From NCBI GenBank assembly GCA_902525615.1, contig CABZHT010000001.1, positions 285,282 through 349,281 on the forward strand: a DNA stretch of 64,000 bases, given 5' to 3'. The stretch comes from an uncultured Fidelibacterota bacterium. GTDB taxonomy: Bacteria > Fidelibacterota > Marinisomatia > Marinisomatales > Marinisomataceae. The position numbers and the translations under genes were made by a program. The notes beneath the pieces are model-generated. The model saw only the letters and a program-made list of their open reading frames with translations. It ran no database searches and was not told the DNA's origin. Below are positions 3,269-9,939 of the stretch, piece by piece. How positions within the stretch are numbered: position 1 is the stretch's first letter; every line of letters starts with the position of its first letter.

Positions 3269-3342
3269 GCCCCGGTAGCTCAGCTGGATAGAGCAACGGA
3301 TTTCTAATCCGTAGGTCACAGGTTCAAATCCTGTCCGGGGTA
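3269..3342 (+). tRNA. tRNA-Arg(TCT)
   Basis: Cloverleaf: acceptor GCCCCGG/CCGGGGT, anticodon stem ACGGA/TCCGT with loop TTTCTAA (anticodon TCT), T-arm ACAGGTTCAAATCCTGT. Confidence 0.95.
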
Positions 3343-3343
3343 C
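3300..3343 (+). repeat. attL-type direct repeat (tRNA-proximal copy, 44 bp)
   Basis: atttctaatccgtaggtcacaggttcaaatcctgtccggggtac identical to 9896-9939. Confidence 0.93.
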
Positions 3344-3419
3344 TGTCTCTTTCTCTTGATATTACTTGACTTATAGAGAATTTCTTCGTAAATTTTAATG
3401 TAAATCTGGACCCTAAAAT

Positions 3420-3513
3420 ACCTACAACATTACCTACAACACTTTTACTATATTTTTATCTCTATGGACGGACTAAACAAGAATCTTATGTTGTAGTTCA
3501 ATACCTACAACAC
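3420..3513. promoter_or_regulatory. Candidate integrase arm-type sites, left end (four CTACAACA octamers, one inverted)
   Basis: CCTACAACA at 3421-3429 and 3433-3441, TGTTGTAG at 3489-3496, CCTACAACA at 3504-3512. Confidence 0.5.
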
Positions 3514-3563
3514 TATACAATACACTATAAGATATTTTATTTCGTTGCCCTAACTTGATGTAT

Positions 3564-3776
3564 TTATTGATTTTGATGTTCTAACCACACGCGTATTTTC
3601 TCACGATTGAAGAACTTTTTATTTGAACCTTGAACTCGGTAATGTGGAAATCCCTTATATTTACAATAACGATAAAGAGTGGAATAACTGATATTCAATT
3701 CTTCAAGTACGGTTTTCATACCAATTGGACTGAACTCTCTTTTATCTTCTTCTATATTATCTAATAATGAGAACAT
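3564..3776 (-). CDS. Small HTH (MerR/excisionase-like) DNA-binding protein, candidate Xis
   Basis: LEELNISYSTLYRYCKYKGFPHYRVQGSNKKFFNREKIRVWLE resembles HTH_17/excisionase family. Confidence 0.6.
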   Translation of the reverse strand: MFSLLDNIEEDKREFSPIGMKTVLEELNISYSTLYRYCKYKGFPHYRVQGSNKKFFNREKIRVWLEHQNQ

Positions 3777-4051
3777 TAGTTTTTACTGCCAGAATATTGT
3801 TTCCAAAAATTTGAGTTCCTTGAAATCTCATCTGCCGTTTGTAATTCATACTCTTGTAATTCTGTTATTGCCTCTTTTTCCAAAAACGTTTTTAGAATAA
3901 TAACCTTGATACAATCTCTATGTCTTTTTTCAATTTCTAAATCCAAACTCTTTTCAAGATAATTGAACGCCTGATTTAGATGATTTGATTGTAAATCAAT
4001 ATTTTTCTGTAATTCTCTTCGCTTTGATACACTTTGTTTTTTCTGTTCCAT
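3776..4051 (-). CDS. Hypothetical small protein of the element
   Basis: 91-aa ORF abutting its neighbour on the same strand. Confidence 0.6.
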   Translation of the reverse strand: MEQKKQSVSKRRELQKNIDLQSNHLNQAFNYLEKSLDLEIEKRHRDCIKVIILKTFLEKEAITELQEYELQTADEISRNSNFWKQYSGSKN

Positions 4052-4114
4052 TTTCTACTCCTCTATATATAAATATATATTTTCAATACTATGATTGACT
4101 ATGATGACTGATTA

Positions 4115-4615
4115 CTACTTCCTCTTGACTTTTTGTCGGTGGTGTGATACAACTTTTCGTATTTGATTTAGGTTTCTGTTTTTGTGCCTTTTCATAGATT
4201 TATCCAACATCAATTTCTTTTCGTCTATCATCATAAATACCTTTTGACTATTGATATTGTATAGGTCTTTTTCCTTTGCCCCAATCGTCTGTTTCATAAA
4301 ATAAGGTAATGTATTCCTTGGATAATTATCCACTTGCCCGTCTTCATCTGTTGTAAGAATCCTATCAAAATTTGATACTTGAATTATCTCTTGTGAGATT
4401 TTAATTATATCATCAATTCTATTCTGTTTTCGGTCAATGTTGTCTTTTGATTTGTTTGTGTAATTTGTCTTCTTGTTCGCCCAATCTTTATTTACATCTT
4501 TCCATAATCTTCTATCGTTGCCAATCTGTAATTGATGTAATATTTCTCCCCTTATTACCAGAAGAATCTCGTTTATTGATTTAGGTTTTTGATATTCTAT
4601 TTTTGTGTCTTTCAT
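4115..4615 (-). CDS. Hypothetical protein of the element
   Basis: 166-aa ORF co-oriented with flanking element genes. Confidence 0.6.
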   Translation of the reverse strand: MKDTKIEYQKPKSINEILLVIRGEILHQLQIGNDRRLWKDVNKDWANKKTNYTNKSKDNIDRKQNRIDDIIKISQEIIQVSNFDRILTTDEDGQVDNYPRNTLPYFMKQTIGAKEKDLYNINSQKVFMMIDEKKLMLDKSMKRHKNRNLNQIRKVVSHHRQKVKRK

Positions 4616-4808
4616 CTATGAATTTTCCAATCTTCTTTTGAAATGATTTTGTTGTATATCCCCGCACGGATAATGATATGTAATTCAGTAGAAATTCAAA
4701 TAAACTAATTTCCATAAGGAAATCAAAAGTCATTATTTTATATCTATCTTTCATTTTACTGCCTTTAATGTTTTGGTGGTCGTGAGTAGGTGTTAAACTA
4801 TAATCCAC
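4581..4808 (-). CDS. Hypothetical small protein of the element (start may be the internal Met at ~4757)
   Basis: ORF overlaps downstream neighbour; co-oriented. Confidence 0.4.
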   Translation of the reverse strand: MDYSLTPTHDHQNIKGSKMKDRYKIMTFDFLMEISLFEFLLNYISLSVRGYTTKSFQKKIGKFIDERHKNRISKT

Positions 4809-7721: not shown

Positions 7722-7844
7722 TTTTCAAAAAATAATCAAGATAATATTTCTAATGAGTTCTATTTATATATAACTAATGATTACAACATATCGTTTTCAA
7801 TCCTTTGGTGGAATTGAGTTTCCTTTTTCTTGATTCCATATGTT

Positions 7845-7883
7845 AAAATCCCACCGAACAATACGAGTGTTTGGTGGGATTTT
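7845..7883 (-). terminator. Rho-independent terminator downstream of the recombinase genes
   Basis: aaaatcccaccgaaca-atacgag-tgtttggtgggatttt: 16-bp stem (one G-T pair), 7-nt loop. Confidence 0.78.
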
Positions 7884-7903
7884 GTGTATATAATGAGAAC
7901 TGA

Positions 7904-8605
7904 TTATATATACTGAATTACTTGGTTTATCGTCATAGAATCCTTGTAATTTAGTCGTTTTTTTACCATTTGAATTACATCATTTCTGGTAAAATCAGTA
8001 CCGTTTTTCTTGGTGTATCCGTTTCTTTTTGTGAAATCAACAATGTCTTGATAAGATTTTCCTTGGACTTTCATCTTTGCTACTTTTTTCAATAACCTTA
8101 TTTCAGTAGGATTTTCTTTTACAACACCATTTACCATATCGTATCCATACTTTTGTTTGGTGTATCGTTTGTTCGCCAGTTTCTTATCGTTCAAGATACT
8201 TTTAACTCTTTCACCAGTTTGTTGTCGTTCCCACTCCATTACAACCATAAGAAGATTAGACAATAAAGTTCCACTAGGACTATTCAAGTCAATGTTCTCT
8301 TTTAGACATATTAGATTTACGCCTTTCTTTTTCAAGATGTTGAGATTGTTTATACAATCCCCAAGGTTTCTTCCCCACCTTGATAATTCTGTAATGACTA
8401 TTTCAGTAATCAATCCTTGATTTACCATTTTCATCATCTTTTTGAATTGTTGCCTTTCATCAGTTCCACCAGATACTCCAAAATCAATAAATGAATCAGC
8501 TAATTCACAACGCTTAAATTCACAATATCTTTGAATATCGTTCTGTTGTTGTTCTATGCCGTTTATCTGTTTTTCCGTAGATGTTCTAATGTATCCTACT
8601 CTCAT
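7904..8605 (-). CDS. Serine recombinase (resolvase/invertase family)
   Basis: MRVGYIRTSTEKQ...IDFGVSGG...ITELSRWGRN...SPSGTLLSNLLMVVMEWERQQTGERV resolvase catalytic domain. Confidence 0.92.
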   Translation of the reverse strand: MRVGYIRTSTEKQINGIEQQQNDIQRYCEFKRCELADSFIDFGVSGGTDERQQFKKMMKMVNQGLITEIVITELSRWGRNLGDCINNLNILKKKGVNLICLKENIDLNSPSGTLLSNLLMVVMEWERQQTGERVKSILNDKKLANKRYTKQKYGYDMVNGVVKENPTEIRLLKKVAKMKVQGKSYQDIVDFTKRNGYTKKNGTDFTRNDVIQMVKKRLNYKDSMTINQVIQYI

Positions 8606-9837
8606 AACTCCCTCTTGTTTAATGAATCTAAAATTGACTTACCTTTACCAACTTGTATGTGTCCGTAAATATCGTAAGTCGTTCCAATCTTACTATGTCT
8701 TGCCACAACTCTTGAAATGTCTTGAATTGGTATTCCTTGTTTCAATAACTGACTTATGACTCCGTGTCTTATACTATGTGGTGTGAATAGTGGTTCTTGT
8801 GTTCTTTTATCAACCAATCCTAATCCCTCACATAATCTTTTGAAATTTGAAATCAACCACTCTTTACTATACTTGTTATTCGTTCCTGGATTTGTGAAAA
8901 CATATTTATCTTTTGGATTTCTGCTATCAAATCTTTTCTGTATCAACTTTTGTAATGTTTCCGGTAATTCAAAATTCGTAGTCAATGTTCTCTTGAAATA
9001 GATAGTCATTGTTTTCATATCTCTATTCAAATGACTATACGGAAATCTTGTTTCTCCAACCTCGTCTTTATCATTAGTCCATTTCAGTATTTGTATTTCT
9101 CCACCTCTCATTGCCGTATTCAACATAAAGTATAACATTTCCTTGAAATCTGTATTTCTATTGAACCAAGTCCATTTCTTTCTTTCATCATCAGTAGTAG
9201 GATTGAAATCCAAACTCTTTTCAATGAAAGAATATAGTTTATCCCAATCCTCGCCCATTGGAATTTCATCAATCGTTCTTGACTGATATTTTGGAATCTT
9301 GATTTCGTGGTTAAAAGGATTCTGTATAATATAATTTTCTCTTACCAACCACTTGAAAAAGGTTTTGAGATAAGTCATATCATTTTTGATAGTGTTCTGT
9401 TTTAGTCCTTTTTTCTTTCTATATGTTTGATACGCCTTTATCATTTCAGTAGTAATCTTTGGAACGAGAATCCCCTTATATCTTCGGTCTAAAAATTTTC
9501 TAAATTGTTCTGTGTAATTGGTATGATTTACCGCAGTGATTCTTGATAGTTCTAAATTATCTACCCTTTTGAAATTGTATTTCTCGTATTGTTTCAAAAC
9601 ATTTTTGAGAGTGTTCGGTTCTTTGATTGTTGGATTGCCCTTGATTGTATTTGTATCAATATAATCGTAGTGTTTATCCAACTCTTTCTTTCTTGCCTTT
9701 TTCTCTTTCTCGTTCAACTGACCGAGATACTTCGTTATTCTTTTTTTCTTACGCCCATAAGTGTCTTGGTATGAAAATGTTTGGTAGTAAGAATAACCTC
9801 TACTATTCGTGAATATCGTTGATTTTCTTTTACTCAT
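8602..9837 (-). CDS. Tyrosine recombinase / phage-type integrase
   Basis: SAM-like N domain; catalytic LNTAMRGGEIQILKW, TPHSIRHG, ARHSKIGTTYDIYGH. Confidence 0.95.
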   Translation of the reverse strand: MSKRKSTIFTNSRGYSYYQTFSYQDTYGRKKKRITKYLGQLNEKEKKARKKELDKHYDYIDTNTIKGNPTIKEPNTLKNVLKQYEKYNFKRVDNLELSRITAVNHTNYTEQFRKFLDRRYKGILVPKITTEMIKAYQTYRKKKGLKQNTIKNDMTYLKTFFKWLVRENYIIQNPFNHEIKIPKYQSRTIDEIPMGEDWDKLYSFIEKSLDFNPTTDDERKKWTWFNRNTDFKEMLYFMLNTAMRGGEIQILKWTNDKDEVGETRFPYSHLNRDMKTMTIYFKRTLTTNFELPETLQKLIQKRFDSRNPKDKYVFTNPGTNNKYSKEWLISNFKRLCEGLGLVDKRTQEPLFTPHSIRHGVISQLLKQGIPIQDISRVVARHSKIGTTYDIYGHIQVGKGKSILDSLNKREL

Positions 9838-9845
9838 ACTGGAAT

Positions 9846-9866
9846 CTACAACACAAAACTACAACA
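9846..9866. promoter_or_regulatory. Candidate integrase arm-type sites, right end (two CTACAACA octamers), overlapping the int promoter region
   Basis: CTACAACA at 9846-9853 and 9859-9866, same octamer as at the left end. Confidence 0.45.
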
Positions 9867-9895
9867 TACAAGAATTTCTCGTCTATACTGAATAA

Positions 9896-9939
9896 ATTTC
9901 TAATCCGTAGGTCACAGGTTCAAATCCTGTCCGGGGTAC
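9896..9939 (+). repeat. attR-type direct repeat (44-bp tRNA-Arg 3' fragment)
   Basis: Identical to 3300-3343; no 5' tRNA half. Confidence 0.93.

Follow-up and report, generated by a model that had tools for sequence, protein, structure and literature searches.

A compact integrative element at a tRNA-Arg(TCT) gene of a SAR406 bacterium and single-gene cassettes at the same site

The window analyzed here, a 64-kb stretch of the five-contig, 919-kb genome of an uncultured SAR406 (Neomarinimicrobiota) bacterium (G000), contains a 6.6-kb piece of DNA that lies between two copies of a 44-bp attachment (att) repeat and is a precise site-specific insertion at the gene for tRNA-Arg(TCT). Comparison with 23 other genomes of the same SAR406 genus identifies this as a clean insertion, because close relatives have an uninterrupted site, and shows that the same tRNA gene receives small single-gene cassettes in other members of the genus. 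It is probable that this is a compact SAR406 integrative element and that its integrase, or a sibling enzyme, also moves these cassettes.

Boundaries and gene content of the element

The two att copies are identical over 44 of 44 bp and correspond to the last 44 nt of the tRNA gene, beginning 3 nt ahead of the anticodon, and the unit from att to att measures 6,596 bp. Scanning the region for direct repeats revealed no other repeat near 44 bp at full identity. Empty sites with matching flanks are present in G010 (locus L049), G018 (L050), and G005 (L054), where the tRNA gene runs straight into downstream sequence of the type that follows the second att copy (AATAAATCCTTCCTTTATTTC... in L050). 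The same small gene as in the window follows there, and then genes for an SGNH hydrolase, a beta-propeller protein and an SDR protein, while the upstream genes (secF, a DMT transporter, DUF502, and a gene of 75 aa) are conserved throughout. Two further Neomarinimicrobiota loci (L109 and L119) each have a single uninterrupted tRNA-Arg gene. The element was found in one of the 24 genomes of the genus, and neither the integrase, the ParB-DruA fusion nor the serine recombinase described below has a close homolog in the other 23, several of which are incomplete. The GC content (31.0% inside the element, 30.6% outside) is uninformative on the origin of the element. The features of the element and its attachment site are as follows.

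3269-3343, plus strand: tRNA-Arg(TCT), intact, with its 3' half serving as attachment site (ARAGORN; Rfam tRNA, 73.9 bits)
3300-3343, plus strand: att copy 1 at the left junction, 44 bp, the 3' part of the functional tRNA (exact repeat)
3422-3441, plus strand: tandem pair of CTACAACA with a 12-bp period, putative arm-type sites of the left end (match to CNACWACA(N3-4)CNACWACA)
3489-3512, minus (3489) and plus (3505): further CTACAACA sites, putative arm sites (exact-repeat search)
3564-3776, minus strand: excisionase-like HTH_17 protein, 70 aa, candidate xis (Pfam PF12728, E 5e-6; phrog_66, E 4e-6)
3776-4051, minus strand: orphan open reading frame (ORF), 91 aa (no family in Pfam, PHROGs or NCBIfam)
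4115-4615, minus strand: orphan ORF, 166 aa (no family in Pfam, PHROGs or NCBIfam)
4581-4808, minus strand: orphan ORF, 75 aa, GTG start (ORF list; Pfam and PHROGs scans)
4868-5080, minus strand: orphan ORF, 70 aa (ORF list; Pfam and PHROGs scans)
5070-5342, minus strand: orphan ORF, 90 aa, TTG start (ORF list; Pfam and PHROGs scans)
5330-5545, minus strand: orphan ORF, 71 aa (ORF list; Pfam and PHROGs scans)
5913-7721, minus strand: fusion of ParB_N and DruA/DUF4338, 602 aa (Pfam, E 7e-9 for ParB_N and 1e-22 for DruA, PF14236)
7904-8605, minus strand: small serine recombinase of the resolvase family, 233 aa (PF00239, E 1e-35)
8602-9837, minus strand: tyrosine integrase, 411 aa (Pfam PF00589, E 3e-16; phrog_1, E 6e-40)
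9846-9866, plus strand: pair of CTACAACA at 9846 and 9859, putative arm sites of the right end (exact-repeat search)
9896-9939, plus strand: att copy 2 at the right junction, 44 bp (exact repeat), followed by the sequence that trails the tRNA in empty relatives

All ORFs with recognizable domains between the att copies are on the minus strand. The integrase gene lies 58 nt from the second att copy and overlaps the serine recombinase gene by 4 nt, and the xis-like helix-turn-helix gene, whose product matches TIGR01764 below the cut-off of that family, is located at the opposite end. The integrase sequence has the R, HxxR, H and Y catalytic motifs and is only distantly similar to anything found (best phage tblastn match about 25% identity; best match in 100 related genomes E 5e-8); a single-sequence AlphaFold model of it (pLDDT 38, the predicted local distance difference test score) was not used. 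The nearest relatives of the serine recombinase, in other SAR406 genomes, are about 40% identical, and the gene for the closest (38% identity; L252, G147:C3, 7856-8548) follows shortly after a tRNA-Phe gene. An element family defined by the serine-recombinase relatives in G147 and G184 was rejected, the other genes of the element being missing there. Searches of Pfam, PHROGs and NCBIfam recognized no family of capsid, terminase, relaxase or replication-initiator proteins, and the six orphan ORFs could hide one.

A sequence-only reading of this DNA had described the exact repeat of the tRNA 3' half, a minus-strand gene set with an integrase at one end and an xis-like gene at the other, a ParB/DruA-like protein and no recognizable genes of replication, conjugation or capsids, all of which the searches above bear out. 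It had placed only orphan ORFs besides the ParB/DruA-like protein in the interior, and six orphans are indeed present; the serine recombinase had been overlooked, and so, with no relatives for comparison, had the cassettes described below. The empty site that it had proposed to look for in relatives was found in the three genomes named above, and the outcome it had named as contrary, the same genes standing at this locus in all close relatives without the second repeat or belonging to the conserved core, was not encountered. These empty sites, together with the lack of recognized phage structural genes in PHROGs and of a relaxase in Pfam or NCBIfam, agree with its view that this is neither a prophage nor an integrative and conjugative element (ICE). 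The 6.6-kb unit is a real, recent-looking integrative element, with its class uncertain.

A decaying genomic island, integrated once and now immobile cargo (for example an anti-phage gene of the DruA type) with relic recombinases, is an alternative reading. DruA takes its name from a defense system (PADLOC DruA match of the fusion, E 1e-14), the element is confined to one genome, and another locus at this site (L066) has a decayed att copy; here, however, the att repeats are identical, the frames of the integrase and the serine recombinase are intact with their catalytic motifs, none of the genes with known domains seems cut short and the Druantia partner genes are absent. Such an island appears unlikely.

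Exact CTACAACA occurs seven times in the window, and six of these copies are located in the ends of the element (3422, 3434 and 3505 on the plus strand and 3489 on the minus strand at the left; 9846 and 9859 on the plus strand at the right), the layout expected of integrase arm sites. The predicted attP junction of the excised element reads TACTGAATAA-ATTTCTAATCCGTAGGTCACAGG...GGGGTAC-TGTCTCTTTC. A sequence AAGAA(A)TTTCTCGTC is present at window positions 3184-3210, upstream of the tRNA gene, where it is similar across the genus, and at 9869-9884, in the right end of the element; several right ends of the cassettes described below contain the similar TTTTCTCCTCGAG.

In the fusion protein the ParB_N domain occupies residues 9-85 and the DruA/DUF4338 domain residues 263-536. 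The DruA half matches proteins of the Pelagibacter phages Mosig and HTVC008M (32% identity, E 1e-43 and 1e-31) as well as proteins of T4-like cyanophages, and in three T4-like cyanophages (L145, L146, and L147) a gene of the DruA family lies inside the clamp-loader/regA replication cluster. An alignment-based scan of viral contigs yielded at least 594 relatives, from which 80 loci were kept for examination; the ParB part has no match in any of these 80 loci, in which the containing ORF has at most 439 aa. In the AlphaFold2 model of the fusion, the DruA half reaches a pLDDT of about 90, and the N-terminal half is poorly modeled. In a Foldseek search of PDB, GNAT acetyltransferases dominate (probability up to 1.00, best GNAT E about 0.01), and the DruA half is likely to have a GNAT-like fold. 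The fusion provides an example of a link between a small integrative element and the DruA family of marine T4-like phages.

This kinship bears on the class of the element, which the sequence-only reading had given as a phage satellite or tycheposon-like element. The part of that claim concerning an integrated mobile element stands; the satellite or tycheposon part is unproven, with neither a hallmark packaging gene nor an IMG/VR match for the att sequence, the integrase or the ParB-DruA protein. As a satellite, similar to virion-encapsidated integrative mobile elements (VEIMEs), phage-inducible chromosomal minimalist islands (PICMIs) or tycheposons, the element would be excised and packaged by a helper phage, perhaps as a concatemer resolved by the serine recombinase, and the DruA-like half would have been acquired from, or would interact with, a T4-like helper. 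The small size and gene poverty fit, as does the example of PICMIs, which have about 6 kb, are packaged as concatemers and likewise lack packaging genes (PMC10803314), and the DruA half has its nearest relatives in Pelagibacter phages and cyanophages, in the latter within a replication cluster. Against this, the att sequence, the integrase and the full ParB-DruA fusion are unmatched in 2.9 million IMG/VR contigs, in exact-short-word scans that give weak negatives, and no terS, sid, ppi or capsid gene was recognized with Pfam and PHROGs. A satellite is a possibility that we regard with some doubt. The IMG/VR scan with the cassette junction returned a sole match (L108), a chance hit in an unrelated 422-kb viral contig.

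Single-gene cassettes at the tRNA-Arg(TCT) gene

The tRNA-Arg(TCT) site is an insertion hotspot. Five related genomes contain six complete cassettes of 0.76-1.9 kb at this tRNA gene, namely insertions of 1,919 bp in G007, 1,515 bp in G011, 1,172 bp in G022, 759 bp in G020, and 861 and 959 bp in tandem in G019, and at the end of each cassette lies a further 44-bp att copy that differs at 0-3 positions. Complete cassettes are found at L048, L051 (the tandem pair), L055, L056, and L065 and cut ends at L052 and L058; in G008 and G002 the contigs break off inside the insertion and only left ends are present, and in G012 the unit at the tRNA is shorter and its att copy decayed. Each of the six has one main ORF in the direction of the tRNA, encoding a Big_9/cadherin-like lipoprotein, a GmrSD_N-HNH protein, a zinc-ribbon DUF805 protein and, in three cases, a protein without clear family. 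The GmrSD_N-HNH gene of L055 (11122-12402, minus strand) matches NsnA of PADLOC at E 1e-32 and is likely an anti-phage gene that moves as a single-gene unit. None of the cassettes contains a recombinase or any remnant of integration or transfer genes.

Eight cassette leaders, at the left ends, align across about 115 bp, and strong scores of a sequence model of the leader are limited to this genus and this tRNA; G009 and G003 match the leader merely by chance, inside rpsA, and weak matches outside the genus are chance-like by score. Each leader holds a pair of direct repeats of 11-12 bp, the units of which agree within a cassette and vary between cassettes, i.e., they covary (CGACAACA, CTACTACA, CAACTACA, CAACAACA, CGACTACA). 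The pattern CNACWACA(N3-4)CNACWACA, which in the window matches once, at 3422, and in ten shuffled copies of the window not at all, has seven matches in 251 kb of the relatives, every one in a cassette leader.

An inverted copy of the core of the tRNA anticodon arm (C[AT]AC[AG]G-N4-8-AATCCG[TC][TC]G) occurs once in each of the eight leaders, and across the 315 kb searched this pattern is confined to the tRNA itself and these inverted copies, with none in the element of the window. The copy is situated about 85 bp inside the cassette, for example at L048:2708, L051:2805 and 3666, and L065 (reverse-complemented) 2850. A leader hairpin as a conserved RNA was rejected, with folding z-scores from +1.9 to -3.6 across cassettes, and because the leaders show no consistent RNA folding, a protein-binding role appears more likely for the inverted core.

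The cassettes of L048 and L056 share a leader type (98% identical) and the right end ...ATACAATCA, whereas the flanking genes of their hosts are 78% identical; left and right ends are paired here, and this constitutes evidence for movement of cassette ends between species. A conserved gene of 113-114 aa adjoins att copies in three genomes, at L066 (reverse complement 2578-3080), L055 (reverse complement from 4010) and L056 (from 3918), and in L066 it lies between the tRNA and the decayed att copy; it is possibly an old cassette that has since become fixed.

How the element and the cassettes may move

We propose that recombination of attP with attB takes place in the anticodon loop: the integrase would use core sites of the anticodon arm together with the CTACAACA arm sites at both element ends, and the element's own 3'-half copy would restore the tRNA. 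The xis-like protein would direct excision to a circle, the small serine recombinase would resolve multimers of that circle, and the fusion of ParB with the predicted GNAT-like DruA domain would act on the element DNA while it replicates or is transferred, to mark, protect or segregate it. Since no replicase, relaxase or capsid gene was recognized, leaving the cell would require a helper, i.e., a phage, an ICE or generalized transfer. Finally, the cassettes would be moved in trans by this integrase or by a sibling that shares its arm grammar. Core, insertion point and arm grammar are common to cassettes and element, yet no cassette contains a recombinase, and the cassettes therefore probably depend on an integrase in trans. 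Among the 24 genomes the sole tyrosine recombinase seen at this tRNA is that of the element, the others being XerC/XerD-like or located elsewhere.

Several observations weigh against parts of this proposal. The repeats of the cassettes (CGACAACA, CTACTACA, CAACAACA, CAACTACA) resemble but differ from CTACAACA, which makes a sibling integrase an equally likely donor; a second repeat pair is missing from the cassette right ends, and the CNACWACA pattern was defined post hoc, after inspection of the sequences. The serine recombinase may be an invertase instead of a resolvase, and we infer excision to a circle from assembled sequence, the form in which the element is known here. Regarding the fusion, identity of the DruA half with Mom was suggested by the annotation of one cyanophage record and by islands of Dehalococcoides with ParB and Mom. 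The Mom DNA-modification family is reported to be GNAT-like. Identity of DruA with Mom (PF25680) was rejected, the hhalign probability against an eight-member Mom alignment being 0.4%; by analogy, the DruA half might take Mom's role.

Alternatively, the cassettes may be unrelated to the element and moved by XerC/XerD or another, unseen integrase. The cassette-bearing genomes mostly have XerC/XerD-like recombinases only, the cassette leaders are a family of their own, and G019 has an extra integrase of 365 aa elsewhere, while the att core, the insertion point and the repeat grammar of the left end are all common to element and cassettes; we consider this separate origin a serious contender, if somewhat short of an even chance. 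The integrase of G019 (L157, G019:C1, 8237-9334) adjoins an apparent tRNA 3' fragment and perhaps marks a second, different integration site.

If the element's integrase or a sibling does serve the cassettes, the tRNA-Arg locus could be an integron-like platform, on which the tyrosine integrase of autonomous elements captures, stacks and exchanges single-gene, leader-bearing cassettes. This broader reading is tentative and in our judgment rather doubtful; if true, streamlined ocean bacteria, in which few mobile elements are known, pass lipoprotein genes and a GmrSD-type restriction gene among themselves by way of the platform. No mobile element for SAR406 was found described in the literature searched. 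The locus combines a well-defined att site, a candidate integrase and its candidate arm sites, relatives with and without an insertion, and single-gene cassettes whose recombination signals appear to be those of the element. With it, two questions can be tested, namely by what route single genes pass between uncultured marine species, and whether cassettes can form an integron-like system at a tRNA site that has no integron integrase. Its main interest is that one tRNA in a streamlined marine lineage is used both by an element with an integrase and by a family of single-gene cassettes.

Comparison with known systems

With a repeat of the tRNA 3' end, an integrase at att and an empty site, the element has the sequence hallmarks of tRNA-targeted tyrosine-integrase elements. 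It resembles the integrative and mobilizable elements (IMEs) and genomic islands of this kind (PMC5704250) in its insertion in a tRNA 3' half, direct repeat, integrase beside att, xis-like gene and empty site in relatives, and differs from them in having no recognized relaxase and in having a serine recombinase and the ParB-DruA fusion. Tycheposons (PMC10872708) are similar in marine host, tRNA border and tyrosine recombinase, and their size range of 4-200 kb includes the element, while PICMIs (PMC10803314) are similar in minimal size and content and differ in using fis as their site instead of a tRNA-Arg gene. In contrast to tycheposons, VEIMEs and PICMIs, the element is known here from genome sequence, and PHROGs gave no convincing head or packaging family as a hallmark of packaging or capsid redirection, which PICMIs also lack. 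The element fits neither the conjugative elements nor the PICMIs nor the Druantia systems: Pfam, PHROGs and NCBIfam scans found no relaxase or conjugation genes of an ICE or conjugative IME, and the DruA-family protein is present in the element without DruE helicase or other Dru genes.

The ssrA islands of Dehalococcoides combine a small serine recombinase, a ParB-domain protein and a Mom homolog (PMC3146451). They share with the element integration at the 3' end of a stable RNA gene and the module of small serine recombinase and ParB, and with the tRNA-Arg locus tandem arrays that include islands without an integrase (PMC3146451). However, they use the large serine recombinase DsiB (PMC3146451), whereas the element has a tyrosine integrase, and their module has Mom, whereas the ParB of the element is fused to a DruA-family domain and Mom was not detected by profile comparison. 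A similar gene combination thus recurs in elements at stable-RNA sites.

The single-gene cassettes, of which no description was found in the literature searched (subscription papers being largely outside it), resemble integron gene cassettes in having one gene each and in tandem insertion at a single chromosomal site, but they have half a tRNA gene as recombination site and a separate leader for every cassette. No integron integrase was recognized among the tyrosine recombinases of the 24 genomes; attC was not specifically searched for. The cassettes are also similar to cis-mobilizable elements (CIMEs), described as decayed ICEs or IMEs, in having attL and attR without a recombinase and in tandem accretion with integrase-bearing elements (PMC5704250). 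They differ as uniform single-gene units with a conserved leader; they fit the anatomical definition of CIMEs, and the uniform leader argues against independent decay.

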